DNA of 64,000 nucleotides, taken from positions 558,001-622,000 of the forward strand of contig NZ_KB911821.1 of assembly GCF_000383675.1 (NCBI RefSeq), written 5' to 3'. The DNA comes from Terracoccus sp. 273MFTsu3.1 (GTDB lineage: Bacteria; Actinomycetota; Actinomycetes; Actinomycetales; Dermatophilaceae). Positions within the stretch are counted from its first letter, which is position 1; each line of letters begins with the position of its first letter. Made by a program: the position numbers and the translations under genes. This document shows positions 23,562 through 63,409 of the stretch, piece by piece. Below the pieces are notes generated by a model. The model did no database searches, was not told where the DNA came from, and worked only from the letters and a program-made list of their open reading frames with translations.

Positions 23562-25082
23562 GTGACGCGCAGCCCGCTCTTCCTCGCCGCCCTGGCGAGC
23601 TCGGCCGTGCCGGGCCTCGACCCGGTGACGGTGGAGGGTGTCCCGGGCCGTTCCGGCGACCTCTTCGAGATCGCCTACGTCCAGGACAGCCAGGACCGCC
23701 GCTGGGTCGTCAAGGCGCCGTGCACGTCGGCGGCCGGCGCGATGCTCGACGACATCTCCGCGCTGTCCGGTCTGCTCGGGCGGCGGCTCGACGTGGCCAT
23801 GCCCATGGTCCGTGGCCTCGCCCAGGTGCCGGAGGGCCGAGCGGCCGTCTACCTGCGGGTCCCCGGTCGCCCCCTCGACTTCGCGGGGCTCCGTCCGGGA
23901 CCGTTGACGGCCGAGGTGGGTCGCACCCTCGCGCACATCCACAACGTCGAGCACCTGCTCTACGAGGAGGCCGGGCGACCCACGTACGACGCCGAGGCGT
24001 ACCGCCGGCGCCAGCTGTCCGAGCTCGACCGGGCCGCCGCGACAGGACACGTGCCCACCGGGCTCCTCACGCGGTGGGAGCACGCCCTCGAGGACGTCTC
24101 GCTGTGGCGCTTCGCCCCGACCACGGTCCACGGCACCTTCACCGGCGAGAACGTCCTCGCCTCCTTCGACGACGATGACGATTCATCGAGCGGTCACGTG
24201 CGCGGCGTCCTGGCCTGGGAAGCCAGCCGCGTCGGCGACCCGGCGGACGACTTCGCCGAGCTCGCCAGTCTCGCGCCGGCCGAGACGCTCGATGCCGTGC
24301 TCGAGGCCTATGCCGAGTCGCGCATCGAGCGACCCGACGTGCACCTTGTGCGCCGCGCTCGGCTCGCGGCCGAGATGGCGCCGCTGCGGACCCTGCTCCA
24401 CGCTCTCGCCTCCGGGCAGCTCGACGTCGTCGAGCGCACGGCGGACGAGCTGCGCGCGCTCGACGGCCGGGTCGAGGACGACGACCGCCGCCACGCGCAG
24501 GAGGACGCCGAACGCAGCGAGCGCACCCGGCAGGCCCGAGAGCGCGCCGCGGCTGTCCTCGACCCCGACGACCCCGAGCGACCCGAGCCCGAGTGGGACG
24601 CGACCCAGCCGCACGTGCCCTTCCCGATGCTCGGCGAGACCCAGGCGATCTCGATGACCTCCCTGCTCGACGACCCGCAGACACCCCCGGCGGGGACAGC
24701 CTGGAGCGTCGAGCCGACGGCGGACCCATCCCTGCAGTCACCACCACCCGAGCCCACCGTCACGTCGGACCCGTGGGACACCGAGCCGCCCGCGACCCCG
24801 CGGGCGACGGAGGATGGGTCACCGGGGGCGGGCGCCAGCCCTGACGGCGTGGCCCCGGTCGCCGACGGCGCGTCTGCGCCGGAGCCGGAGCCGGAGCCGT
24901 GGCACGGCGAGGCCGTCAAGGAGTCCCAGCCGGTGCCGCTCATGGCCGCGGACGCCGACGCCTCCACCTTCGAGATCGACGAGGTCGAGGCCCTGCCCGA
25001 GGACGCCGACGGCGTGCTCGACCTCCACGAGGGCGCCTCCGACTTCGTCCCCGTCGAGCACCGCCCCCACGAGCACCCCTGA
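23562..25082 (+). CDS. APH-fold phosphotransferase homologue, probable pseudokinase
   Basis: Protein of 506 aa. Residues about 1-300 have the aminoglycoside-phosphotransferase fold: KAPCTSAAGAML, then VHGTFTGENVL (about 189-199) where active enzymes have HGDxxxxN, and VLAWEASRVGDPADDFAEL where IDW is usual. Both the catalytic Asp (now Thr192) and the first metal-binding Asp (now Ala, about 218) are missing, so phosphotransfer is doubtful. Residues 300-506 are an acidic, Pro-rich, probably disordered tail. GTG 23562 is divergent from nudC. An antibiotic-resistance function should not be assumed. Confidence 0.7.
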   Translation: MTRSPLFLAALASSAVPGLDPVTVEGVPGRSGDLFEIAYVQDSQDRRWVVKAPCTSAAGAMLDDISALSGLLGRRLDVAMPMVRGLAQVPEGRAAVYLRVPGRPLDFAGLRPGPLTAEVGRTLAHIHNVEHLLYEEAGRPTYDAEAYRRRQLSELDRAAATGHVPTGLLTRWEHALEDVSLWRFAPTTVHGTFTGENVLASFDDDDDSSSGHVRGVLAWEASRVGDPADDFAELASLAPAETLDAVLEAYAESRIERPDVHLVRRARLAAEMAPLRTLLHALASGQLDVVERTADELRALDGRVEDDDRRHAQEDAERSERTRQARERAAAVLDPDDPERPEPEWDATQPHVPFPMLGETQAISMTSLLDDPQTPPAGTAWSVEPTADPSLQSPPPEPTVTSDPWDTEPPATPRATEDGSPGAGASPDGVAPVADGASAPEPEPEPWHGEAVKESQPVPLMAADADASTFEIDEVEALPEDADGVLDLHEGASDFVPVEHRPHEHP

Positions 25083-25096
25083 CCCACCCACCACCA

Positions 25097-25176
25097 ACTC
25101 GAGTGAGCGCCTATTCCCACTCGAGTGAGCGCTTGTTCCCACTCGAGTGAGCGCCCAACCCCACTCGAGTGAGCCC
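25097..25176. repeat. Left array: four copies of a 22-bp repeat
   Basis: Copies start at 25097, 25119, 25141 and 25163, exactly 22 bp apart, each with the core ACTCGAGTGAGCGC (the last one reads GAGCCC). The core contains the palindrome CACTCGAGTG. The array is inverted relative to the longer array at 25278-25492 and begins 15 bases after the APH-like gene. With its partner it fills the 410-bp convergent gap, where I see no gene. Confidence 0.9.
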
Positions 25177-25277
25177 TCACCCCACGCGCCCGCGGGGCCT
25201 GCCACCCCTGCACGTCGAACTGACCCCGCGTGCACACCCGACACGTGCGCCCCGGATTGGGGCCAGAGTGACGACAT

Positions 25278-25492
25278 GCTCACTCGACTGGGACGGGGCG
25301 CTCACTCGACTGGGACCGGGCGCTCACTCGACTGGGACCGGGCGCTCACTCGACTGCGACGGGGCGCTCACTCGACTGAGACGGGGCGCTCACTCGACTG
25401 CGACGGGGCGCTCACTCGACTGGGACGGGGCGCTCACTCGACTGGGACCGGGCGCTCACTCGAGTGGGACGGGGCGCTCACTCGAGCGACGG
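25278..25492. repeat. Right array: ten copies of the same 22-bp repeat, inverted
   Basis: Copies of GCTCACTCGA start at 25278 and recur every 22 bp up to 25476. The typical unit is GCTCACTCGACTGGGACGGG plus two bases. Most units read CTCGAC, while the last two read CTCGAG, which restores the palindrome seen in the left array. The array abuts the adnB stop codon. Spacing by a near-integral number of helical turns would put every copy on one DNA face. Open frames crossing it are repeat-derived and not credible genes. Confidence 0.9.
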
Positions 25493-28400
25493 CTAGTCGG
25501 GGAGGGTGCGGAGCAGGTCGACGAGGGCGGCCTCGCCCGGCAGGTCGGGACGCACGGTGACGCCTTCCCCCGCGTAGTAGAACGCCGCGTCGACGAGCGA
25601 CGGGTCGACACCGCGCAGCCGGGCGAAGGCGACGGCATACGCGCCGAGCTGGAGCGCACGGACGGTCGCGTCGCGCCCGGTCGGCCTGGCACCCGTCTTC
25701 CAGTCGACGACCGTCCAGCCGCCGTCGTCGCGCGGGAAGACGGCGTCGACCCTGCCGCGGACGGCGATCCCGTCGATGACCGTCTCGATCGACATCTCGA
25801 TCTCCTCGGGGATGCGGTCGGCCCACTCGCTGACGAGGAAGCGTTCCTTCATCCCGTCCAGGTGGCCGTCGTCGGCCGCCCCCTCGTCGGCGCTGCCCGG
25901 GAGGTCGAGCAGGTCGACGAAGGCGGCGCGCGAGTAGTGCTCCTCGATCCATGCGTGGAAGGCCGTGCCCTGCCGCGCGGCGACGGCCGGCGGGCTCGGC
26001 ATGGGGCGCCTCAGGGACATGGCGAACGCCTCCGCGTCCCGGGCCAGCGACACGACCGCGGATGCCGAGAGGTGGCGCGGGACATCGACGACGGCCTCAG
26101 CACGAGACCGTCGGGCCGCCTGCTCGGCGAGCAGGATGCGGAGGTCGTCGACGCGTGGATCCCCTTGCGGCACGGTGAGACCCGCGTCGACGAGGGCGGC
26201 GATCCGTCGGTGCGCGCCGAGCAGGCCGGCGCGCCTCGCCCCCATCGGGTCGTGCGGCCACAGCTGTGAGATCGGCACGGCGAGGTGCGGGTTGGTCGGT
26301 GCCGACGCCTTGCCCTTGGCGTCGAGGACCGGCTCGGGGTCGGGTGCCCAGGCGGTGCGCACGACGGACCCGGGCAGGGTCTCCTCGACCTCGGTCAGGA
26401 AGCGTGACGGCACCGACAACGTCTTCTTCGCCGCACCCCAGAGGTGGGTCGTCAGGAGCATCGAGGCGCGCGCTCGGGTCAGCGCGACGTAGGCGAGACG
26501 CCGCTCCTCGGCCACGGCATGCCGCCCGCCCTCGAGGACGAACGCGTCGATGGCGACGCTCAGCGCCTTGCGGTCGGGCACACCGCGCCAGTCGAGGTGC
26601 GGCAGGCCGGCCCGGTCACCGCGCAGGTCGTAGGGCAGCGAGTCGAGACCGATGAGCCAGCCCTTGTCCTTGACGTCCCCCGAGCAGGCGTATGCCGTGG
26701 GCTCGCTGTCGGCGACGGGCGCCACCGCGGTCGCGCCGTGCGCCGGGAAGACACCCTCGACGAGGGTCGGGACCGCCACGACGTCCCACTCGAGCCCCTT
26801 CGCCGCGTGGACGGTCAGGACCTGGACGGCGTCGGCGTCGGACTCGGAGTGCCCGGCGTCGAGGCCGCGCTCCTGGTCGCGCGCGGCGTCGAGCCAGCTG
26901 AGGAAGCCGGACAGGGTGGGCCGGTCGGCCGTCGTGGCGTAGCGCGCCGCGACGTCGGCGAAGGCGTCGAGGTGCACGCGGGCGGTGGAGGCCGTGTGCT
27001 CGGGTCGTGAGAGCACCTCGATGTCGAGCCCGATGGCGACCTCGGCCTCGGCGACGAGGTCGACGAGGGGCAGGGCCGTGAGCCGACGCAGCCGCCGCAC
27101 GACGTCGCCGAGGTCGTGCAGGCGGGCCAGCGCCTCGTCGCCGATGCGGGTGCCGTCGCGCCCGGTCCACCCGGCGCGAGGCAGGTCGTCGAGGGCCTCG
27201 ACGAGGGTGGCGGTGTCGGCACTGTCGGCCGCGAGGTCCGAGCCCCGGCGGTCGCCGGTGGGGGCCTCGGCGCCATCGGCACTCGCCGCCTCCGCCACGC
27301 CGTCGTCCGCCATGCCGTCGTCCGCCACGCCGTCGTCCGCCACGCCGTCGTCCGGCACGCCGTCGCCCGCGACGCCGTCGTCGACTGCGCGGTCACCCGC
27401 AGGTGGCTGGCCGCCCGAGGCCACTGGCCCCGGGCTCGCCTGCGCGGAGGCGGCGCCGGCCTCCGCCCGGTCGGGTGCGGTCGAGGTCGTGGTCCCTGCT
27501 CGCGGTGCCCGCTGGTGCAGCTCACGTGCCCAGGCCCACAGCCCGGCCAGGTCGGCCGCGCCGAGGCGCACGACGGGCCCGGTCAGCAGGCGCATCAGCT
27601 GGTCGCCCCGGCTGGGGTCCTGCACCACCCACAGGGCGGCGACGAGGTCGCTGACCTCGGGGGTGACGAGCAGGCCGCCGAGGCCGACGACCTCGACGGG
27701 CAGCTGGTGGCGGCGGAGCGCCTCGAGGACGACGGGGAAGGTCGAGCGTCGCCGGCACAGCACGGCCGCGCTGCGTCCCGTGCGCCGGCCGCTCGGGCTG
27801 AACCAGTGCGCGGCGATCCAGGCGGCGAGGTGGTCGGCCTCCTCCTCGGCGGTCTCGAGCCGGGCCACCTCGATGGTCCCCACCCCCGCCCCGGGCCGTG
27901 GTCGCAGCGGCTGCACGTGCTCGGTCGCGAGCGGCGCGGCGACGGCGTTGGCCGCGTCGAGGATGAGCGAGTCGTTGCGCCAGCTCGTCGACAGCGGCAG
28001 GACGTCGGCGGGACCCTCGTCGCCGCCGAACTCGGACGGGAAGCGCAGCAGGGTGGTCGCGCTCGCGCCGCGCCATCCGTAGATCGACTGGTTGGGGTCG
28101 CCGACGGCGGTCAGCGCCACCCCGGGGTGGTGGAAGAGCGAGCGGAGCAGCTCGAGCTGGGCCTCGGACGTGTCCTGGAACTCGTCGAGCAGCACGGCCC
28201 GGAACCGCTCGCGCTCGATCTGACCGACGGCCGGCACCGACCGGGTGAGCCGGGCGGCGATGGCCATCTGGTCGGCGAAGTCGAGGGACTCACGCTCACG
28301 CTTGAGGGCGAGGAAGGCCTCGACGATCGGCAGCACCGTGCGGCGCTCGCGCAGGACCCCGACCGCGTCTCGCGCGGCGGTGAGCGATCCACGGCCCTCC

Positions 28401-29068
28401 CCGTCGGGCAGGGCGTCGAGGCGCGCGAGCACGGCGTCGAGGTGGTCCATCACCTCGACCGGCGTGCGGACGTGCTCTGCCATCTCGCCGGCGAGCGCCA
28501 TGACGGCCTGGATGACGGTCGCCTCGCTCTTGACGACGTCGTCCATCGGGCCGTCCCAGCGCGACACCGCCTCGGCGGCGAGCTGCCACGCCCCGGCCTC
28601 GGTGAGGATGCGGAACTCCGGCTCGATGCCCACCCGGAGCGCGTGCTCGCGGACGAGCCGGCCGGCATACGCGTGGTAGGTGGAGACGGTCGGGGTGCCG
28701 CCGAGCACCTCGGCGCCCGTGCCGTCGTCGGCAGGCGGTGTCCAGATGCCGGCCCGCTCGAGGCCACGCAGGCGCTTGGCGATGCGCTGGGAGAGCTCGG
28801 CCGCGGCCTTGCGGGTGAAGGTGAGGCCGAGCACCTGGTCGGGGTCGACGAGGCCGTTGGCGACGAGCCACACGACCCGGGCCGCCATCGTCTCGGTCTT
28901 GCCCGAGCCGGCGCCGGCGACGACGAGCAACGGACGGGCCCCCGCCTCGATGACGGCCGCCTGCTCGGCGGTGGGCGGTGGCATCTCGAGGGCCGCGGCG
29001 ATGTCGAAAGCGCTGTGCCGCACGGTCGTCGCGGACCGTGCCTCCGTGGCGTCAGCAGTGGTGGTCAC
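25493..29068 (-). CDS. adnB: AdnB-like UvrD-type helicase-nuclease subunit
   Basis: Protein of 1191 aa. The SF1 motor has Walker A VVAGAGSGKTETM (about residue 50), motif II LLDEFQDTSEAQL, GDPNQSIYGWRGA, LTVHAAKGLEWDVV and VALTRARASML. The C-terminal RecB-type nuclease has GTAFHAWIE, VRGRVDAVF and TVVDWKTG. AdnA/AdnB form the heterodimeric motor-nuclease that resects double-strand breaks in mycobacteria, and the second gene of the pair is AdnB there. A repetitive Asp/Gly/Val linker of about 100 residues interrupts the protein between motor segments. GTG 29068 overlaps the adnA stop by 4 bases. Confidence 0.85.
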   Translation of the reverse strand: MTTTADATEARSATTVRHSAFDIAAALEMPPPTAEQAAVIEAGARPLLVVAGAGSGKTETMAARVVWLVANGLVDPDQVLGLTFTRKAAAELSQRIAKRLRGLERAGIWTPPADDGTGAEVLGGTPTVSTYHAYAGRLVREHALRVGIEPEFRILTEAGAWQLAAEAVSRWDGPMDDVVKSEATVIQAVMALAGEMAEHVRTPVEVMDHLDAVLARLDALPDGEGRGSLTAARDAVGVLRERRTVLPIVEAFLALKRERESLDFADQMAIAARLTRSVPAVGQIERERFRAVLLDEFQDTSEAQLELLRSLFHHPGVALTAVGDPNQSIYGWRGASATTLLRFPSEFGGDEGPADVLPLSTSWRNDSLILDAANAVAAPLATEHVQPLRPRPGAGVGTIEVARLETAEEEADHLAAWIAAHWFSPSGRRTGRSAAVLCRRRSTFPVVLEALRRHQLPVEVVGLGGLLVTPEVSDLVAALWVVQDPSRGDQLMRLLTGPVVRLGAADLAGLWAWARELHQRAPRAGTTTSTAPDRAEAGAASAQASPGPVASGGQPPAGDRAVDDGVAGDGVPDDGVADDGVADDGMADDGVAEAASADGAEAPTGDRRGSDLAADSADTATLVEALDDLPRAGWTGRDGTRIGDEALARLHDLGDVVRRLRRLTALPLVDLVAEAEVAIGLDIEVLSRPEHTASTARVHLDAFADVAARYATTADRPTLSGFLSWLDAARDQERGLDAGHSESDADAVQVLTVHAAKGLEWDVVAVPTLVEGVFPAHGATAVAPVADSEPTAYACSGDVKDKGWLIGLDSLPYDLRGDRAGLPHLDWRGVPDRKALSVAIDAFVLEGGRHAVAEERRLAYVALTRARASMLLTTHLWGAAKKTLSVPSRFLTEVEETLPGSVVRTAWAPDPEPVLDAKGKASAPTNPHLAVPISQLWPHDPMGARRAGLLGAHRRIAALVDAGLTVPQGDPRVDDLRILLAEQAARRSRAEAVVDVPRHLSASAVVSLARDAEAFAMSLRRPMPSPPAVAARQGTAFHAWIEEHYSRAAFVDLLDLPGSADEGAADDGHLDGMKERFLVSEWADRIPEEIEMSIETVIDGIAVRGRVDAVFPRDDGGWTVVDWKTGARPTGRDATVRALQLGAYAVAFARLRGVDPSLVDAAFYYAGEGVTVRPDLPGEAALVDLLRTLPD
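27292..27381 (-). repeat. 15-bp tandem repeat inside adnB
   Basis: Roughly six imperfect 15-bp units (CGCCGTCGTCCGCCA type) encode repeated DDGVA/DDGMA pentapeptides in the AdnB linker. The repeat stays in frame, so the gene is not broken. Confidence 0.8.
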
Positions 29069-32000
29069 AGCGCGTCCCCCTCGGGCTGGACCGGGCAGGA
29101 CGACCGCACGGGACACGTCTCGCACGCCTTGCCCTGGGCGGCGCGGAACTCAGCGGCGCCCATCCCCTCGGCCGTCGACTCGACGAGCGTCCGTGCCCAC
29201 GTCGGGTCGTCGCTGCTTGCGAGCGGTGGCTGCGGCATCACGCTCGGCTTGAGTCCGGACAGACCGCCCTTGCCGATGAAGGCGAGCGCTGCGCCGGCAC
29301 TGCGGTCGCCGAGCGCGGGGAAACCGCCCTCCTCGACGGCCACCTGGTAGGCCCCGAGCTGGCCGTGCTGGGCGAGCTCGGCCTTGGTCGGCTTGGACTT
29401 GCCGGTCTTGAGGTCGACGATGCGCAGGCGCCCCTCGGCGTCGCGCTCGATGCGGTCGACGCGCCCGGCCACGACGGCACGCCCGACCTCCACGCGGAAG
29501 TCGGTTTCGATGCCGACGCGCTCCCAGTCCCGCTCGGCGCCGGCCCGGTAGGCCACGAACCGCGCCACCATGTCGTGCGCCTCCTGGTGGGTGCGATCGG
29601 TGACCCAGCCCGGCTTGAGCCCGAGGCGTCCCCAGCGGTCGTCGACCTCCTGCTTGAGCTCCTCGAGCGGCGCGTCGGGCAGCTCGGCGACGATGTCGTG
29701 GACGAAGGTGCCCACGGAGGCCGCGCCGAGGGAGACGCCCTCGCCGCCGACCGACGTGAGGAACCAGCGCAGCCCGCACTCGGCGAAGTAGGTGACCTTC
29801 GAGGGCGACACCGGCACCGGCTCGTCGGGTCGGCGCACGGGACGCTCGCTCGTGACCGACCGGAGCGCCCACCAGGACGTCGGGTCGGCTCCGCGCACGC
29901 CCTCGCGCGCCGCGGCTGCGAGCAGGTTGAGGGCGGGCTCGGCGACGCCGGGGTCGGGGCTGACGGCCTCGCGCCGCAGCTCGCCGACGAGCCCCGGCAG
30001 GGTCATGGTGCGCGCGACCTCGGAGTGCGGCCTCACCTCGTCGGCGAGCCGCGTCGTCGCGGGAGGGTCGACGAGGTCGAGGTAGACCGACGGCTGCTCG
30101 TCCTCGTTGCCCACGGCGGTGACGAGCAGGCGCTCCGTGGCGCGCGTGACGGCCACGAGGAAGAGGCGCGTCTCGTCGTAGCGCACCGCCGCCTGGGCGG
30201 CGCGGAAGCCGAGCGGTCGCTGGGCGACGACGTCGACGAGGTCCTCGGACCCGAGCACGGAGCCGCGCAGGCGGAGGTCTGGCCACACGCCCTCCTGCAC
30301 GCCGGCGACGACGACGATGCGCCACTGCCGGCCGGCGGCGGTCTGCGGCGTCAGCAGCGCGACCCGGCCACCGGACTGACCTCCCACGAGCAGGGTGTCG
30401 CCGGGGACGTCCTGGCCCTGGATGTGCTCGAGGAACTTGTCGGGGCCGGCGGTCGGCAACCGGTCGACGAACGCGCCCGCAGCGTCGAAGAGCGCGAGCA
30501 CGGCGTCGAGATCGCGGTCGGCCCGCTCGCCCGACGTGCCGCCGGAGAGCGCCTGTCGCCGCCACCCGTCGGCGACCCCCGCACCCTGCCAGATGGCCCA
30601 CAGCACGGACTCGGCCGTGACCCCGCGCGCCCACCGGCCGTCGTCGGCGACGCGCGCTGCCGCGGCGCCGGCGGCGAGCGCCGTCGCGATGCGTTCGGCG
30701 GGCCGTGCGGTCGACCCGAGCATCCGGGCGCGGGGCTGCGACTGGAGCAGCTCGGCGAGCAGCTCGTCGCTGGACCGCCCACCGCCCGAGGCGAGCTCGT
30801 CCTGTCGGAGCAGCCGTCGCAGGCGTCGCAGGCCGACGGTGTCGCTCCCCCCGACCGGGGACAGCACGAGGTCGGCGGCCCGCACGGGGTCGATGACGTG
30901 GGTCTCGCCGCGGTGCTCGGCGCGGGCGATGGCGATGCTCTCGTCGAGCAGCTGCAGCAGCGGGCGCACCGCGCTCTCGTCGCGGACCGGGGTCTCGGCG
31001 CTGCCGGCCTGGACCGGCACCCCGGCCTGCCCGAGCAGGCGACGCATCGCGTCGGCGCGCCCCGATCCGCGCACGACGACGGCCATGTCGGTCCAGGGCA
31101 CGCCCTCGACGAGGTGGGCCCGGCGCAGCAGGGCCGCGACATGAGCCGTCTCCTGGGCGGCGGAGCGCAGCAGCGCCACCTCGACGGTGCCCCGCGACGG
31201 GTCGGCGGTCGCCGACGACACCCGGCGCTGCTCGCCGCCGCCGAGCGCCCCGATGCGACGCGAGACGCGGTCGGCCACCCCCACCATGTCCTCACCCAGC
31301 CTGTGGGTGCGGTCGAGCACGACGGTCTCGGCACCGTCCGCCGCGTCGTCGATGAGGTCGAAGAGCCCGCCGACGAAGCGGGGGTCGCGCCCACTCCCGA
31401 CGAGATCGGTCCAGCCGTCGGCGAGGAAGCGCGGGTCGGCGCCGCGGAAGGTCTGGACGGCGACGTCGGGGTCGCCGAGGAGGACCACCCGGGGGCTACC
31501 CGCGCGGGCGACGACGCGCAGCAGCCGTGCGGCCGCAGACGTCAGCTCCTGGGCCTCGTCGACGACGACGAGGCGGATGCGGTCGTGGAGCCGGTCGAGC
31601 GCGGACGGGTCGTCGTCGAGCAGCTCGGCGACCGCCGTGAGCACCCAGGCGGGGTCGTAGGAGCCGTGCCGGCTGAACGAGGTGACCTGGTCGTACTCGC
31701 GCAGCACGTGCGCCGCCGCCGCCCACTCGGGCCGGTCGTGCTCGTCGGCCAGACGGGCGAGATCGTCGGGGCCCTGCCCCAGCTCGACCGAGCGCATGAG
31801 CAGGTCGCGCAGCTCGTTGCGGAAGCCGCGGGTCGTCAGCGCCTCGCGCAGCTGCTCGGGCCACGCCGGCCCGCGCACCTCCCCCGAGGCGTGCCCGGCG
31901 AGCAGGTCGCGCAGGATGACGTCCTGCTCGGGGCCGTTGAGCAGCCTCGGCGGTGGGTCGCCGCGCAGCGCCGCCTCGGCCCGGAGCACCCCGAAGCCGA

Positions 32001-32298
32001 AGGCCTGCCACGTCCGCGCGAGCGACTCGGTCGACGTGCCGCCGAGCCGCGCCGTGACCTGCTGGCGCAGCGCGGCCGCCGCGCTGCGGCTCGAGGTGAG
32101 CACGAGGCACGAGTCAGCCCGCAGCCCCTGCCGGCGCACGGCGTCGACGACGAGCTCGACCGCGAGGGTCGACTTGCCGGTGCCCGGTCCGCCGAGGACC
32201 CGCAGCACCCGGGCCGAGGAGTCGAGCGCGGCCTGCTGCCGCTCGTCGAGCCGCACCTGCGCCGGGGCGAGGGCTGGAGCTCGACGGAGGATGACCAC
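29065..32298 (-). CDS. adnA: AdnA-like helicase-nuclease subunit
   Basis: Protein of 1077 aa. The N-terminal UvrD-like motor has LGGPGTGKSTLAVEL, VVDEAQELTSAA and LLGDPDVAVQTFRG. The C-terminal RecB-like nuclease has VAGRVDRIERD and RIVDLKTGKSKP, bracketed by Cys residues (AECGLRW; CETCPVRSSC) that fit an Fe-S cluster. It should work with AdnB as a double-strand-break resecting motor-nuclease. The GTG at 32298 has no strong ribosome site, and the promoter presumably lies in the 210-bp gap before katG. Assignment as AdnA follows gene order and the Cys cluster. Confidence 0.83.
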   Translation of the reverse strand: MVILRRAPALAPAQVRLDERQQAALDSSARVLRVLGGPGTGKSTLAVELVVDAVRRQGLRADSCLVLTSSRSAAAALRQQVTARLGGTSTESLARTWQAFGFGVLRAEAALRGDPPPRLLNGPEQDVILRDLLAGHASGEVRGPAWPEQLREALTTRGFRNELRDLLMRSVELGQGPDDLARLADEHDRPEWAAAAHVLREYDQVTSFSRHGSYDPAWVLTAVAELLDDDPSALDRLHDRIRLVVVDEAQELTSAAARLLRVVARAGSPRVVLLGDPDVAVQTFRGADPRFLADGWTDLVGSGRDPRFVGGLFDLIDDAADGAETVVLDRTHRLGEDMVGVADRVSRRIGALGGGEQRRVSSATADPSRGTVEVALLRSAAQETAHVAALLRRAHLVEGVPWTDMAVVVRGSGRADAMRRLLGQAGVPVQAGSAETPVRDESAVRPLLQLLDESIAIARAEHRGETHVIDPVRAADLVLSPVGGSDTVGLRRLRRLLRQDELASGGGRSSDELLAELLQSQPRARMLGSTARPAERIATALAAGAAAARVADDGRWARGVTAESVLWAIWQGAGVADGWRRQALSGGTSGERADRDLDAVLALFDAAGAFVDRLPTAGPDKFLEHIQGQDVPGDTLLVGGQSGGRVALLTPQTAAGRQWRIVVVAGVQEGVWPDLRLRGSVLGSEDLVDVVAQRPLGFRAAQAAVRYDETRLFLVAVTRATERLLVTAVGNEDEQPSVYLDLVDPPATTRLADEVRPHSEVARTMTLPGLVGELRREAVSPDPGVAEPALNLLAAAAREGVRGADPTSWWALRSVTSERPVRRPDEPVPVSPSKVTYFAECGLRWFLTSVGGEGVSLGAASVGTFVHDIVAELPDAPLEELKQEVDDRWGRLGLKPGWVTDRTHQEAHDMVARFVAYRAGAERDWERVGIETDFRVEVGRAVVAGRVDRIERDAEGRLRIVDLKTGKSKPTKAELAQHGQLGAYQVAVEEGGFPALGDRSAGAALAFIGKGGLSGLKPSVMPQPPLASSDDPTWARTLVESTAEGMGAAEFRAAQGKACETCPVRSSCPVQPEGDAL

Positions 32299-39039: not shown

Positions 39040-39303
39040 ATGATCGGAACAATCATCGGGGCCATCATCGTCGGTGCCATCATCGGTGCACTCGGCCGCC
39101 TCATCCTCCCTGGCAAGCAGAACATCTCGCTCGTCGTGACGATCCTCATCGGTATCGTCGCCAACGTCATCGTGACGTTCGTCGTGCGTCAGCTCGGCTA
39201 CTCCAACAACTCGGGCATCGCGTGGATCCCGCTGATCCTCGGCGCCATCGTGGCGGCGATCATCATCGTTCTCTACGGACGCATGAGCCACAAGTCGGTC
39301 TGA
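39040..39303 (+). CDS. GlsB/YeaQ/YmgE family stress membrane protein (copy 2)
   Basis: Protein of 87 aa, a diverged tandem paralogue of the preceding gene: same MIGTI start, GALGRLILPGKQ signature and three helices. AGAAGGAG precedes the ATG. The 192-bp gap between copies suggests separate promoters, and a perfect hairpin follows. Confidence 0.85.
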   Translation: MIGTIIGAIIVGAIIGALGRLILPGKQNISLVVTILIGIVANVIVTFVVRQLGYSNNSGIAWIPLILGAIVAAIIIVLYGRMSHKSV

Positions 39304-39316
39304 CCGACCGCACGAC

Positions 39317-39350
39317 CGAAGGGCCCGACCGCACGCGGTCGGGCCCTTCG
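39317..39350 (+). terminator. Terminator after the GlsB pair
   Basis: Perfect 15-bp arms CGAAGGGCCCGACCG / CGGTCGGGCCCTTCG with a CACG loop, 14 bases past the stop codon. Confidence 0.8.
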
Positions 39351-39441
39351 GCATATCCACCCGACGCACGGGTATGCCGTGTCGACCGGTCCCGGGCACT
39401 CCGGCCTCCGTCGGGTGGCCGGCGGGACGGCATACGCCCTC

Positions 39442-40170
39442 TCAGGCCGACAGGCCGAGGCGCTCCATCCGGCGGGAGTGCTCGTCGGTGAGGCGCGCGA
39501 ACATGCGGCCGAGCTCGGCGAGGTCCGCCCCGGCACGCCCGGGGGCACCGACGAGAATGCTTGCGAGGGCGTCACGCTCGACGCCGACGCGCTGGGCCTG
39601 GGTGATGGCCTCCCCGACGAGACGACGGCCCCAGAGGGCGAGCCGGCCCGCGAGACGCGGGTCGGCGGCGATGGCCTCGCGGACGACGGTGACCGCGAAG
39701 TCGGCCTGACCGGTGTCCTCGAGGACGCTGACGACGAGCGAGCGGGTGTCCTCGTCGACGTAGCGCGAGATCTCGCGGTAGAAGTCCTGGGCGATGCCCT
39801 CGCCGACGTAGGCCTTGACGAGTCCCTCGAGGAAGTCCGAGGCCGCCGTCCGCTCGTGGAAGGCGTCGACGGCCGGCACGAACGGCTCCATGGCCGACTC
39901 CGGCTCGACACCGAGGGACTGGAGGCGCTCGGTGAGCACTGAGTAGTTCTTCAGCTCGTGGGCGGCGAGGACGGCGAGCGCCGACTTGTGACGCAGCGTG
40001 GGCGCGAGCTCGGCGTCCTTGGCCAGCTGGCTGAAGGCACGCAGCTCGCCGTACGCGAGTGCACCGAGCAGGTCCGTGACGGCAGCGAGGTAGCCGGGCT
40101 CGTCGATGCTCTCCTCGTGGCTCTCACCGTCCGTGTCGACGTGGGGTCCGGGCGTCGCGTCGTCGCTCAT
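39442..40170 (-). CDS. Ferritin-like fold protein
   Basis: Protein of 242 aa, mostly helical, with ferritin-like helices (LLGALAYGELRAFSQLAKDA, ALAVLAAHELKNYSVLTERL, DFLEGLVKAYVGEGIAQDFY, ADFAVTVVREAI). Glu/His residues at helix positions could hold a di-iron site, but the full ligand set is not certain by eye. It resembles Rv3210c in type and position beside rhlE. The acidic N terminus (about 25 aa) is probably disordered. Divergent from rhlE across a 244-bp gap. Confidence 0.75.
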   Translation of the reverse strand: MSDDATPGPHVDTDGESHEESIDEPGYLAAVTDLLGALAYGELRAFSQLAKDAELAPTLRHKSALAVLAAHELKNYSVLTERLQSLGVEPESAMEPFVPAVDAFHERTAASDFLEGLVKAYVGEGIAQDFYREISRYVDEDTRSLVVSVLEDTGQADFAVTVVREAIAADPRLAGRLALWGRRLVGEAITQAQRVGVERDALASILVGAPGRAGADLAELGRMFARLTDEHSRRMERLGLSA

Positions 40171-42484: not shown

Positions 42485-43051
42485 ATGAAGCTGCACGATG
42501 GCATCGACGAGAGGCTGCGTGCCTTCATCGAGGCGCAGCACCTCTTCTTCGTCGCGACGGCGCCGCTCGCCGCCGACGGTCACGTCAACCTCTCCCCCAA
42601 GGGCCTGCCCGGCACCTTCGCGGTGCTCGGCGAGCACGAGGTCGCCTACCTCGACCTCACGGGCAGCGGCTCCGAGACCGTGGCCCACCTGCGCGAGAAC
42701 GGTCGCATCACCGTCATGTTCTGCGCGTTCGAGGGGCCACCGAACATCGTGCGGCTGCACGGGACGGGCCGCCACGTGCCGCTCGGTGAGGCCGAGTTCG
42801 ACTCGTACCGCGGGCTCTTCGCCGACCACCCCGGCGCCCGGGGCGTCGTCGTCATCGACGTCGAGCGCGTCTCCGACTCGTGCGGCTATGCCGTGCCGTT
42901 CATGAGCCACGACCGCGACCGGGACCTGCTCACGCGGTGGGCGGGCAACCGGGGCGACGACGGCCTGGCGACCTACCGCGCGACGAAGAACGCGACGTCC
43001 ATCGACGGCCTCCCCGCGCTCGACCCGCCGTCCACCCCCGCCCCGTCCTGA
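42485..43051 (+). CDS. Pyridoxamine 5'-phosphate oxidase-like flavin protein
   Basis: Protein of 188 aa with a split-barrel fold. It begins RLRAFIEAQHLFFVATAPLA and has DGHVNLSPKGLPG, the FMN-binding stretch of this general-stress/PNPOx-like family, then RITVMFCAFEGPPNIVRLHG. True PNP-oxidase activity is not implied; many members bind F420 or FMN. GAGGAGG lies upstream of ATG 42485. It is convergent with the alcohol dehydrogenase gene. Confidence 0.82.
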   Translation: MKLHDGIDERLRAFIEAQHLFFVATAPLAADGHVNLSPKGLPGTFAVLGEHEVAYLDLTGSGSETVAHLRENGRITVMFCAFEGPPNIVRLHGTGRHVPLGEAEFDSYRGLFADHPGARGVVVIDVERVSDSCGYAVPFMSHDRDRDLLTRWAGNRGDDGLATYRATKNATSIDGLPALDPPSTPAPS

Positions 43052-43052
43052 C

Positions 43053-43123
43053 GCAACACACCGTGGAAGTCACAACACCCCGGGATCGGATCCCGGGGTG
43101 TTGTGACCTGTTCGGTGTGTTGC
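43053..43123. terminator. Nested bidirectional hairpin between convergent genes
   Basis: Inner perfect 19-bp arms GTCACAACACCCCGGGATC and its complement (43069-43087, 43089-43107), and outer arms GCAACACACCG / CGGTGTGTTGC (43053-43063, 43113-43123). It starts one base after the upstream stop codon and ends 20 bases before the convergent stop, so it can serve both genes. Confidence 0.7.
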
Positions 43124-43142
43124 GGCGGCTACGGGTCTCGCG

Positions 43143-44189
43143 TCAGGCGTTGATCGTCGCGGTGTCGATGACGAAGCGGTAGCGCACGTCGCCGGCCACG
43201 ACGCGGTCGTAGGCCGCGTCGACCTCGTCGGCCGAGATCGTCTCGACCGTCGCGCCGATGCCGTGCTCGGCACAGAAGGCCAGCATCTCGGCGGTCGCGG
43301 GGATGCCGCCGATGTTCGAGCCGGCCACGACGCGGCTGCCGCCGACGACGGCACCGGGTGCGAAGTCGTAGTTGCCCGTGGGCAGCCCGACGTTGGCGAT
43401 GACACCGAGCGGGCGCAGCAGGCCGATGTAGGTCTGCATCGGCAGGTCGGCGCTCACCGTGTTGATGATGATGTCGAAGGTCCCCTTGAGGCCCTTGAGG
43501 ACACCGTCGTCGCCGGTCGCGAAGTAGTGCGTCGCGCCGAGCGCCTCGCCGTCGCCCTTCTTGGCGTCGGTGCGGCTGAGCACGCTGACCTCGGCGCCCA
43601 TGGCGGCGGCGAGCTTGACGGCCATGTGGCCCAGGCCGCCGAGCCCGATGACGGCGACCTTCTTGCCGGGGCCGGCACCCCAGCGCTTGAGCGGCGACCA
43701 CACGGTGATGCCGGCGCAGAGCAGCGGGGCGGCGACGTCGAGCTCGATGCCGTCGGGGATGCCGACGGCGAAGCGCTCGGAGACGACGACCTGCTGGGCG
43801 TAGCCACCCTTGGTCGGCTCGCCGTCGTAGCCCGTGCCGTTGTAGGTCATGACCGCGCCCTTGGCGCAGAACTGCTCCTCGCCGTCCTTGCAGTGCTCGC
43901 ACTCGCCGCACGAGTCGACCATGCAGCCGACCCCGACGCGGTCGCCGACCTGGTACCTCGTGACGCCGTCACCGACGGCGGACACGACACCGGCGATCTC
44001 GTGGCCGGGGACCATGGGGAAGATCGCGCTGCCCCACTCCTCGCGGACCTGGTGGATGTCGCTGTGGCAGATGCCGGCGAACGCGATGTCGATGAGGACG
44101 TCGTCGTCACGCAGGTCACGGTGCTCGACGGTCCGGGCCTCGAAGGCGGCTCCGGCGCTCGGTGCGACCAGTGCGGGGGTGGAAATCAA
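43143..44189 (-). CDS. Zinc-dependent NAD(P) alcohol dehydrogenase (AdhC/YahK-like)
   Basis: Protein of 348 aa, medium-chain dehydrogenase. The catalytic zinc site is GICHSDIH with PGHEIAG, the structural zinc C-x2-C-x2-C-x7-C is in CGECEHCKDGEEQFC, and the cofactor loop is GLGGLGHMAVKLA. It probably reduces aldehydes with NADPH. The start is TTG at 44189, with AAGGAGA six bases upstream, and no nearby ATG fits. It sits between rhlE and parA, where mycobacteria have other genes. Confidence 0.9.
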   Translation of the reverse strand: MISTPALVAPSAGAAFEARTVEHRDLRDDDVLIDIAFAGICHSDIHQVREEWGSAIFPMVPGHEIAGVVSAVGDGVTRYQVGDRVGVGCMVDSCGECEHCKDGEEQFCAKGAVMTYNGTGYDGEPTKGGYAQQVVVSERFAVGIPDGIELDVAAPLLCAGITVWSPLKRWGAGPGKKVAVIGLGGLGHMAVKLAAAMGAEVSVLSRTDAKKGDGEALGATHYFATGDDGVLKGLKGTFDIIINTVSADLPMQTYIGLLRPLGVIANVGLPTGNYDFAPGAVVGGSRVVAGSNIGGIPATAEMLAFCAEHGIGATVETISADEVDAAYDRVVAGDVRYRFVIDTATINA

Positions 44190-60582: not shown

Positions 60583-62127
60583 ATGAGTGAAGAGCAGAAG
60601 ACCTCTCCGAGCCGCAAGCGCCCGACGACCGACGAGTTCCGGGCCTTCGTCGCGAGCGGTTGGGCGCCGCGCGACACCGGGGTGACCCCCCGGGCCGAGG
60701 TCGCCGACCACGCAGCCCGTCGCCGTGACGCCGTCAGTGCCGCCTTTCCCGGCGAGCGCCTCGTCGTCCCGGCCGGCGGCCTCAAGGTGCGCAGCAACGA
60801 CTGCGACTACGTCTTCCGCCCGCACAGCGCCTTCGCCCACCTGACGGGCCTCGGCAGCGACCGCGAGCCCGACGCCGTGCTCGTGCTCGAGCCGCGGCCC
60901 TCCGCCGACGGTGAGGCCAGCGACGGGCACGAGGCCGTGCTCTACTTCCGCCCGCTCGCCGACCGGGACACCGAGGAGTTCTTCGGCGACTCGCGCTACG
61001 GCGAGTTCTGGGTCGGTGCCCGCCCCACCCTGGCCGACATCGAGTCCGAGCTCGGCGTCACGGCCCGTCACATCGACGAGTTCGGTGAGGCCGTGGGCAA
61101 GGACGCCGGCCAGGTGACGATCCGCGTGGTGCGCGACGCCGATGCCGAGGTCGCGACCCGCGTCGACAAGGCCCGCGCCGCCGCGGCCGAGACGCAGGAG
61201 TCCGGCGAGGCCGAGACCCGCGTCGACCGCCAGCGCGAGGCCGACGAGCAGCTTGCCGCGTTCCTCTCGACGCTCCGCTTCGTCAAGGACGAGTGGGAGG
61301 TCGAGCAGATGCGCGACGCCGTCGACGGCACCCACAAGGGCTTCGACGCCGTCATCGCAGACCTCCCCGAGGCGGTCCGCCGCGGCCGCGGCGAGCGCTG
61401 GGTCGAGGGCGTCTTCGGACTGCACGCCCGCCACCACGGCAACGGCGTCGGCTACGACTCGATCTGCGCCAGCGGCGACCACGCCAACACGCTGCACTGG
61501 ATCAAGAACACCGGCGACATCAAGGACGGCGACCTGCTGCTCCTCGACGCCGGCGTCGAGGTCGACTCCCTCTTCACCGCCGACATCACCCGCACCCTGC
61601 CGGTGAGCGGCACCTTCACCGACGCGCAGCGCAAGATCTACGACGCCGTGTACGCCGCCCAGGAGGCCGGCATCGCTGCCTGCAAGCCCGGCAACAGGTT
61701 CAGCGACGTCCACGCGGCGGCCATCCGCGTCATCGCCGAGCACCTTCACGAGTGGGGCCTGCTGCCCGAGGGCATCGACGTCGAGGGCACGCTCGACGCC
61801 GACCACGGGCAGCACCACCGCCGCTGGATGGTCCACGGCACGAGCCACCACCTCGGCATCGACGTCCACGACTGCGCGCTGGCGACCCGCGAGGAGTACT
61901 CCGACGCCGAGCTGAAGCCCGGGATGGTCCTCACCGTCGAGCCGGGCCTCTACTTCAAGTCCGACGACGAGCTCGTCCCCGACGAGTTCCGGGGCAACGG
62001 TGTGCGCATCGAGGACGACATCCTCATCACCGACGACGGCTGCGAGAACCTCTCGGCGGCGATGCCACGCAGCTCCGACGAGGTCGAGCAGTGGATCGCC
62101 CGGATCTGGGGCAGCGCCAAGGCCTGA
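60583..62127 (+). CDS. pepP: Xaa-Pro aminopeptidase (M24B, PepP-like)
   Basis: Protein of 514 aa. The N-terminal creatinase-like domain ends near residue 210. An acidic insert (KARAAAAETQESGEAETRVD) follows. The C-terminal pita-bread domain holds five metal ligands: Asp in LLDAGVEVDS and ADITRTLP, His in GTSHHLGIDVHD, Glu in TVEPGLYF and VRIEDDIL. It removes N-terminal residues before proline. ATG 60583 or the GTG one codon upstream starts it. Confidence 0.92.
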   Translation: MSEEQKTSPSRKRPTTDEFRAFVASGWAPRDTGVTPRAEVADHAARRRDAVSAAFPGERLVVPAGGLKVRSNDCDYVFRPHSAFAHLTGLGSDREPDAVLVLEPRPSADGEASDGHEAVLYFRPLADRDTEEFFGDSRYGEFWVGARPTLADIESELGVTARHIDEFGEAVGKDAGQVTIRVVRDADAEVATRVDKARAAAAETQESGEAETRVDRQREADEQLAAFLSTLRFVKDEWEVEQMRDAVDGTHKGFDAVIADLPEAVRRGRGERWVEGVFGLHARHHGNGVGYDSICASGDHANTLHWIKNTGDIKDGDLLLLDAGVEVDSLFTADITRTLPVSGTFTDAQRKIYDAVYAAQEAGIAACKPGNRFSDVHAAAIRVIAEHLHEWGLLPEGIDVEGTLDADHGQHHRRWMVHGTSHHLGIDVHDCALATREEYSDAELKPGMVLTVEPGLYFKSDDELVPDEFRGNGVRIEDDILITDDGCENLSAAMPRSSDEVEQWIARIWGSAKA

Positions 62128-62153
62128 CCGCCTGGCCGGCTCTCCCCCACCTG

Positions 62154-62223
62154 ACCGAACGCGGCGTTCGGTCTCGAGCGCAGCGGCACAACACCGCTCT
62201 CTAGACCGAACGCCGCGTTCGGT
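62154..62223. repeat. Two mirror-image 19-bp hairpin units
   Basis: ACCGAACGCGGCGTTCGGT (62154-62172) is the exact reverse complement of ACCGAACGCCGCGTTCGGT (62205-62223). Each also folds on itself with 8-bp arms and a 3-base loop. The pair sits between convergent stops (62127, 62237), so at least one unit probably terminates transcription. Confidence 0.75.
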
Positions 62224-62236
62224 GTGTCAGGAGGGG

Positions 62237-63409
62237 TCACTTCGTCATGGGGATCTCGGTCGGGGTCGCTGGCTCGATGCCGGTGCCGGCCCCGCCACCG
62301 CCCGTCGAGCCGGGCACCTCGGCCGGTGCCGTCGCGTCGGGCGCCGGCGGCACGACCGTGCCGTCCGACGACACCGAGCCGTTCAGGTCGGGGCCGGGGA
62401 TCCGCGGGCTCCACTGCTCGACGAGCTCGACGAGCGATGACGCGTCGGCGGACTCGAGGTTGGTGCCGAGCACGGCCGGTGCGCAGTCCGGGTCGACGGT
62501 GAGGCGCACGGGCGGCCCGACGGCATACGTGAGCAGGAGCGTGAACCGCCCGTTGCCCGGGTTGTCCCGGCCCTGGCACGTCTGCCCCGTCGGCCTCGTC
62601 GGCAGGGCGCGCAGCGCCGCGACGACCTCGGCAGACTGCGTGGCGTCCAGCGGCGTCGCCTTCACCGTGCCGTCAGCCGCGTCACGGCACACGGTCGCCG
62701 TCGGGTCGCCCTCGGGGGCCAGGCTCCGGTCGTCGCCGAGGCGTCCCCACGACGTCCGGTTGCACGCGACGACGTCGGCGGAAGGAGGGGTGCGCGTGCC
62801 GAACATCCTTTCGAGCACGACCGCAGGACCGGGACCCGACCGGAAGTCGCCGTTCGTCGACGTCGAGCAGGCGTTCGCGTCGGCCAGCGCGCTGACCCAT
62901 ACGACGGCGTCGCCGTAGGACGCACCGACCACGTATGCCGTCTCGTTGCCGGCCATCAACGTGCACACCCGCCGGGCCCCGGAGTCGCGCGGCGACCACG
63001 TCAGGGCCTCGACGAGCTCGACCCGCTGGCCGTCGCTCGCCACGGTGCGCTTCGCGAGGCGGAACGGGGGCTGGATCGGCTTCATGATGTCGACGACGGG
63101 ATAGGCGCACACGACGAGGGAGGTCGGGTCGCGGTCGGGCAGCAGGCGAGCGGCGCCGTCGACGCCCTGCGGCTTCTGCGGCACGGGCACCGGCTTGTCC
63201 ACGGCCGCGGCGGCGACCGACTCGGGGCACTGCAGGGCCCCGTCGGCCTCCACGGGCTGGCTGGTGACCGGCCGGACCGGGCCGGAGGCGAGCGACGTCT
63301 CCCCCGGCTGGGGCGTGGTGGCCGTGCCGCACGCGACGAGCGCGAATGCGGCGGCTCCGGTCAGCAGGACGCGGCAGACGGCGTACGGGCGGGGCCTTCG
63401 GGACTCCAT
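62237..63409 (-). CDS. Secreted lipoprotein, DUF3558-like
   Basis: Protein of 390 aa starting with a signal peptide and lipobox (FALVAC, Cys27). Extracytoplasmic sections contain paired Cys and YVVGASYGDAVVWV. The C terminus is Pro/Ala/Gly-rich. The family is suggested by the general shape (short Cys-rich actinobacterial lipoprotein) and is not certain. The function is unknown. Confidence 0.65.
   Translation of the reverse strand: MESRRPRPYAVCRVLLTGAAAFALVACGTATTPQPGETSLASGPVRPVTSQPVEADGALQCPESVAAAAVDKPVPVPQKPQGVDGAARLLPDRDPTSLVVCAYPVVDIMKPIQPPFRLAKRTVASDGQRVELVEALTWSPRDSGARRVCTLMAGNETAYVVGASYGDAVVWVSALADANACSTSTNGDFRSGPGPAVVLERMFGTRTPPSADVVACNRTSWGRLGDDRSLAPEGDPTATVCRDAADGTVKATPLDATQSAEVVAALRALPTRPTGQTCQGRDNPGNGRFTLLLTYAVGPPVRLTVDPDCAPAVLGTNLESADASSLVELVEQWSPRIPGPDLNGSVSSDGTVVPPAPDATAPAEVPGSTGGGGAGTGIEPATPTEIPMTK

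Follow-up and report, generated by a model that had tools for sequence, protein, structure and literature searches.

REP-type palindromic repeats are associated with RAYT transposases and with GTAG or CGTC tags. The REPs of these two super-families lie mostly between co-directional and convergent genes, combine their tags with variable stems, and form clusters; in two species, most of those between convergent genes lie less than 20 bp from a 3′ end (PMC3733652). BIMEs bind gyrase, and REPs help Rho termination (PMC2817692). Hairpin potential readable from both strands of a convergent gap is also the mark of bidirectional intrinsic terminators, and compensatory change has been reported in those of Bacillus cereus (PMC5381666). 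Against this background we describe a family of inverted 22-bp arrays in the soil bacterium Terrabacter, starting from a single intergenic gap.

The window, the whole stretch of 64,000 nucleotides that was analysed, contains a 410-bp gap (25083-25492) between two convergent genes. Core scan, TRF and folding showed that two tandem arrays in inverted orientation, with a spacer between them, take up the whole gap. It is bounded by the stop (25082) of a gene for a 506-aa APH-domain protein (23562-25082, plus strand; Pfam PF01636, E 4e-10) and the stop (25493) of a gene for a 1191-aa AdnB-like helicase-nuclease (25493-29068, minus strand). The UvrD-helicase and PDDEXK_1 domains of the latter are consistent with the name AdnB given to it by an earlier, sequence-only reading, and the adjoining gene (29065-32298) carries the same two domains. 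Inside adnB, a 15/30-bp tandem repeat (27284-27400) codes for a (DDGVA)n-like stretch.

Fourteen cores (TCGAGTGAGC / GCTCACTCGA, at most one mismatch) were found in the gap, four on the minus and ten on the plus strand. The left array (25097-25174, minus strand; core starts 25099, 25121, 25143 and 25165) has four units whose core TCGAGTGAGC points away from the APH-like stop, and the right array (25278-25485, plus strand; core starts 25278, 25300 and on to 25476) has ten units with the core GCTCACTCGA; its orientation relative to adnB is that of the left array relative to the APH-like gene. All steps between cores within an arm were 22 bp, and TRF recovered both arrays with period 22 and scores of 121 and 367. 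This agrees with the sequence-only reading, which had described four left and ten right copies, spaced by 22 bp and opposite in orientation, in a 410-bp convergent gap, and had rightly set them apart from CRISPR. Its 100-bp spacer proved to be slightly longer, with 103 bp between the inner cores (25175-25277), and its "exact repeat" applies to the period and nearly to the core, the linker of each unit being variable. The left-arm core includes the palindrome CACTCGAGTG, in line with the palindromic core noted by that reading. As had also been seen, the copies differ at the base after TCGA on the core strand, which is G in all four left copies (CTCGAG) and in 2 of the 10 right copies, and C in the other 8 right copies (CTCGAC). 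With up to two mismatches, CGCTCACTCGASTG matched the window 15 times, 14 of them inside this gap; over 100 shuffles the mean was 3.71 (sd 2.25) and the maximum 10. Folded as RNA, the minus strand of 25083-25495 reached −262.9 kcal/mol (z −15.4), and none of 100 shuffles was as low. Rfam covariance models gave no match in 24800-25800 at E up to 1, and no terminator-like site was found within 24900-25700.

The array in the adnB gap is one member of a dispersed family of self-complementary gene-end repeats. With one mismatch allowed, GCGCTCACTCGASTG matched the genome of the same strain 198 times, against 1 match for the reversed-pattern control, and CGCTCACTCGASTG matched 203 times, against 4. 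The cores form at least 36 clusters of two or more, the adnB gap among them; this is a lower bound, since 40 of 52 candidates were scored. The underlying search gave 116 overlapping matches, which were grouped by core. The repeat, which had been noticed at adnB, is therefore not special to that gene. Two clusters at contig ends, L037 and L040, may be halves of one element, because the flanks of both map to a single element of Terrabacter Root85 (L084). Strict (−)n(+)m architecture was seen in 21 of the 36 clusters, three had minus cores only, three had plus cores only (two of these at contig starts), and nine were mixed, several of them because GCTCACTCGAGTGAGC reads on both strands. Steps of up to 70 bp between cores on the same strand were exactly 22 in 146 of 156 cases in this genome and in 61 of 72 at 39 loci of relatives. 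Typically, an element consists of 22-bp units that share the core GCGCTCACTCGA and are arranged as (−)n-spacer-(+)m; it lies close behind stop codons and preferentially between convergent genes. Across 242 units, which were picked for their core match, each position of CACTCGA was conserved in 232 or more. Linkers were more alike within an arm (identity 0.727) than between the arms of one locus (0.562; 28 elements), which fits a multiplication of units inside each arm. The spread over the genome is uneven: contig C1 has no exact core in 400001-800000, 33 lie in the first 400,000 bases of C3, and the 283-kb contig C7 carries 8 of the 36 clusters.

Placement relative to genes was determined with a purpose-built codon-usage gene finder and a survey of gaps of 25-600 bp in 864 kb of contiguous sequence (C1 400-800 kb, C3 0-400 kb and the window). 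Over these 864 kb, 2 of 48 exact cores fell in predicted coding sequence. Among arms whose outermost core has the usual orientation, 20 of 27 left and 20 of 26 right ones face a stop codon. These 40 of 53 arm ends compare with a survey background of 390 stop-codon ends among 890 gap ends (binomial p 3e-6). Of the stop-facing arms, 27 of 40 begin 0-30 bases from the stop (median 13). Convergent gaps carried arrays in 4 of 68 cases, tandem gaps in 1 of 254 and divergent gaps in 1 of 123 (p 0.006); with the window excluded, the counts were 3 of 61, 1 of 236 and 1 of 115 (p 0.025). Even among convergent gaps, the share with an array is just a few per cent. An element-centred sample agreed in direction but is biased and was kept out of these rates. 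Among convergent gaps of 40-300 bp, 23 of 39 contained a hairpin of any sequence with z below −3 (21 of 37 when gaps with arrays are set aside); in the tandem and divergent samples, of 70 gaps each, the numbers were 11 and 4. A run with five T in eight within 25 bases of an outer end was present in 1 of 72 cases, which amounts to no U-tract.

We found tandem-core arrays in Terrabacter only. A scan for two tandem cores in one genome per species (84,980 species, in which the genome described here may be missing) returned 32 stretches, all from Terrabacter (Root85, Root181, T. tumescens and Ter38). When one mismatch was allowed, tandem cores were present in 5 of 186 genomes of the family, all of the window's genus. 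Core numbers varied widely among nine genomes of the genus: 198 here (reversed control 1), 107 in G008 (1), 50 in G005 (1), 32 in G006 (1), 14 in G007 (3), 11 in G003 (3), 5 in G001 (3), 3 in G004 (3) and 0 in G002 (0), whose genome is 74% complete. In the literature searched on intergenic and palindromic repeats of the genus and family, no published account of these repeats was found among the matches listed.

To follow the positions of the arrays, the 500-base flanks of the 36 clusters were compared with all fetched loci of the other Terrabacter genomes. At least one core was present in the same gap of another Terrabacter for 30 of the 36; the flanks of L019 and L036 were found in relatives with no core between them, and L027, L029, L038 and L041 had no flank among the relatives' fetched loci. 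In the compared locus pairs the flanks were 79-98% identical, unit number and linkers differed, and core and step were kept. About two units, with one full core, stand in the adnB gap of G006; in the same gap G005 has variant units (TCGAGTGGCCCCGTC), G007 has decayed units, and G001-G004 have no core. In G008 two cores follow the APH-like gene on a separate contig, at its start (L070). In the same genome (Root85, L050), a stretch that resembles an insertion sequence and is repeated on both sides of an N starts at the stop codon of adnB, the place of the array in the present genome. The one-armed copy L033 has counterparts in G008 and G006, and G007 has a more decayed one. The corresponding gaps of relatives may be nearly empty, with as little as 2 bp between the aligned flanks. 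No target duplication was seen by eye in six aligned loci, where gaps differed wholesale between the two stops. Plasmid and phage records held no match to the array, and an origin from either was rejected.

The 22-bp array family is a subfamily, the Terrabacter form, of a class of TCGAGTG-tipped hairpins in the same bacterial family, which share this one tag and have lineage-specific stems. In the same gaps of relatives TCGAGTG is often kept and the other half of the unit changed: to TCGAGTGGCCCCGTCGTCACA in G005 and G006, to TCGAGTGGGCAC in G004 and G005, to TCGAGTGGTCGTTTTGG as a 65-bp tandem in G001, and to CACTCGACGGGGCGTACGGAACTGAG with steps of 25-27 bp in G003. The pattern TCGAGTG-N14..44-CACTCGA, for which arrays score several times, had at least five matches in 21 of 186 family genomes and 10 of 53 genera (reversed control 2 of 186), and in 5 of 394 genomes of the taxonomic class, the present one included (control 2). 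In two other genera, the gaps with TCGAGTG hairpins among the matches listed were 11 convergent, 9 tandem and 1 divergent (n = 21). Steps in other genera were 20 bp (G039, G040) and 61-63 bp (G053), and overall the related gene-end elements step by 20, 25-27, 29-30 or 61-65 bp. Because of these other steps, the 22-bp step is by itself no evidence of helical phasing. Two genomes from another genus of the family (L201-L214) carry hairpins at gene ends, and in their stems lie units of the TCGAGTGGCATACATATG type spaced by 20 bp, which share the building principle of the Terrabacter array and differ from it in sequence and step.

Other palindromes occur at such gaps. The unrelated palindrome ACCGAACGCNGCGTTCGGT replaces the array in 3 of 3 relatives examined at the L019 gap and in 5 of 7 at the L036 gap, and this second family also lies in convergent gaps at 62127-62237 of the window and at 5439-5520 of L013. 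A third, GGGATCSGATCCC beside CGGTGTGTTG, was seen in convergent gaps at 43051-43143 of the window, L020 4827-4919, L023 3896-4021 and L029 685-746. A fourth recurring hairpin, ACGGCATACG / CGTATGCCGT, lies at 39303-39442 of the window, L017 706-791 and L016 1122-1194; its counts in the gap survey were 6 of 68 for convergent gaps, 16 of 254 for tandem ones and 4 of 123 for divergent ones.

How does this family compare with the described systems? Like REPs and BIMEs, it is high in copy, extragenic, palindromic and clustered, and its stems vary by family and its end tag is kept. REPs are expected in more than about 100 extragenic palindromic copies, placed at gene 3′ ends; the 198 cores, rarely in coding sequence, and the excess of arm ends facing a stop agree with both. 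The tags, however, differ, being TCGAGTG here and GTAG or CGTC in REPs and BIMEs. When an unpaired GTAG or CGTC end tag was sought in the 18-nt stretch behind TCGAGTG in the 242 units, GTAG was found in 9 and CGTC in 81; the latter falls in the variable linker and is absent from two thirds of the units. The Y1_Tnp/RAYT domain (PF01797) was detected in none of the nine genomes of the genus (one of them 74% complete); as a positive control, it was detected in 5 of 14 known genomes, one of them E. coli. A RAYT as the spreading enzyme was rejected for the genus. Because the family fails the tag and RAYT tests, we liken it to REPs and BIMEs and do not class it with them. The main text of the GTAG/CGTC survey gives no match for actinobacteria (PMC3733652), and a 2025 survey counted REP-like sequences in three Actinomycetota genomes, with Terrabacter unmentioned in the passage on them (PMC12306157).

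Bidirectional intrinsic terminators share the two-way hairpin potential in a convergent gap. The Terrabacter array differs from them: its hairpin lacks a U-tract, its stem is very long, it is built from a repeat that has been copied, and its arms show no sign of compensatory change. The MIRU/VNTR minisatellites of actinobacteria are intergenic, tandem and variable in copy number. Against these, the array has a short 22-bp unit with a palindromic core and, at most loci, an inverted second arm.

On the analogy with REPs and BIMEs, we tentatively propose, at close to an even call, that the family acts as those repeats are thought to, as a long hairpin that would limit read-through and/or shield mRNA 3′ ends. 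Transcripts passing either stop would fold into a long G+C-rich hairpin, in which pairing could join the two arms or the adjacent palindromic cores of one arm. Such a hairpin may hold back read-through into the opposing gene and/or protect the mRNA 3′ end from exonucleases. Units would be gained and lost through local 22-bp duplication within an arm, and new loci would presumably be seeded by some copying process. This proposal builds on the placement behind stops, the two-way readability, the folding potential, the finding that hairpins are generally common in convergent gaps, and the ACCGAACGCNGCGTTCGGT swap. Two left units fold at −17.5 kcal/mol and two right units at −10.8, with adjacent CACTCGAGTG palindromes paired; folding of this kind, within one arm, would accommodate copies that have no second arm, for example L033.

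Several observations speak against a tuned or required stem, and with them the absence of a U-tract. The arms do not co-vary: when the left-arm and right-arm linkers of a locus were compared in complementary sense, identity was 0.562, lower than the 0.603 ± 0.012 for arms of different loci (28 elements, units from cores readable on both strands included), and 2000 of 2000 permutations reached or exceeded the observed value. Innermost units were as alike within as between loci (0.512 vs 0.509), and no compensatory change between arms was seen in this linker comparison. In relatives, convergent gaps with no core had z below −3 in only 8 of 26, and four further gaps were shorter than 25 bp (4 of 77 fetched gaps had been dropped for a missing right flank). 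A hairpin is therefore not required in the relatives' convergent gaps. Against the gene-end hairpin role also stand the 6 of 36 clusters with one orientation only and the small share of convergent gaps that carry arrays.

The distance between the two arms bears on a different reading. The 25 other arm-to-arm distances in this genome range from 20 to 90 bp, with 36-38 the commonest. Together with those of relatives (26 own distances, from L009-L041 and 25175-25277 of the window; 21 from L042-L048 and L069-L100), they cluster at 26-30, 36-38, 47-50 and 58-60. Their spectrum peaks at 10.5-10.75 bp here and at 10.5 bp in relatives, with R 0.78 each, and none of 2000 jittered sets reached this value in either group. 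This analysis excluded five own distances of 5-6, which stem from cores readable in both directions, and the relatives' distances often come from the same gaps and are not independent. Distances quantised by about 10.5 bp are what protein sites on the helix would give and favour such sites; an RNA role does not predict them. Taken modulo 22, the same distances fall at 6 ± 2 in 8 of 26 own and 8 of 21 relatives' cases and at 15 ± 2 in 14 of 26 and 10 of 21, which leaves four own and three from relatives in neither class. The first class corresponds to one common 22-bp lattice, because the core is palindromic. Two founder forms modulo 22, with whole units decayed or lost, would explain the arm distances as well and are the plainer account. 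The sequence-only reading had suggested cooperative binding on one helical face from the 22-bp period; the period is no proof of this, and the arm distances lend the idea some support to which the lattice offers an alternative.

Two further accounts of the family overlap in part with the gene-end hairpin and with each other, and are not fully exclusive of it. The arrays could be putative binding sites set helically for a nucleoid-associated factor, or for gyrase at the positive supercoils of converging polymerases, which we consider unlikely. Beyond the quantised distances, this would fit the conserved core, the constant step, linkers that are uncoupled between arms, and the binding of gyrase by BIME-2 of E. 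coli (PMC2817692), but the two modulo-22 classes with whole units fit the distances too, related elements have other steps, and copies of one or two cores persist. Alternatively, a REP-like hairpin with no host role might be copied by a trans-acting enzyme and tolerated mainly behind stops, where its insertion does least harm. The wide range of core counts among species would be expected of such a selfish repeat, as would the mere 14 cores of G007, one of the two nearest relatives by AdnB (95-96%), the second half of the unit, which varies between species and genera, and the nearly empty gaps of relatives. This somewhat unlikely account has to accommodate a genus with no Y1_Tnp/RAYT in nine genomes, the want of a plasmid or phage match and, at six loci by eye, of a target duplication, and the 30 of 36 positions common to another species.

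Two other explanations carry very little weight. At the adnB gap alone, the differences between genomes (14 units here, about two in G006, variant units in G005, decayed units in G007, no core in G001-G004) could be taken for those of a neutral minisatellite, the sequence-only reading having named free variation of copy number, with neither period nor position conserved, as its sign. Unit number does vary freely; period and position are largely kept, and at least 36 clusters have the same core, step and gene orientation, 30 of 36 of them shared in place. A single-locus minisatellite is refuted as the full account and highly improbable, although slippage is a likely source of changes in unit number. 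DNA uptake sequences of competent species, as in Neisseria and Pasteurellaceae, are also paired at gene ends, and a short over-represented word in inverted pairs at gene ends recalls them. Uptake words occur singly inside genes too, however, and the present word has about 200 copies, mostly in arrays and rarely in coding sequence, which makes an uptake role similarly far-fetched.

A broader possibility, which we regard as rather doubtful, is that these repeats form a separate super-family of mobile TCGAGTG palindromes spread by a non-RAYT enzyme, whose arms would grow by whole units and be helically phased, which would act as a two-way barrier tuned by unit number, and which unrelated families would replace, as they would one another, at the same gaps. 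If this were true, a convergent gene pair could tune a two-way barrier, whether RNA hairpin or protein-DNA complex, through the number of units. What is described here is a class of gene-end palindromes with another tag, in a genus with no RAYT, with lineage-specific stems and extendable inverted arrays. The swap of unrelated palindromes at the same gap between species and the quantised arm distance open both the gene-end and the protein-site role to direct tests. The TCGAGTG class is an independent case for asking why bacteria keep repeats behind stop codons. High-G+C actinobacteria are held to be poor in U-tract terminators, and the class bears on how these bacteria keep convergent genes apart.
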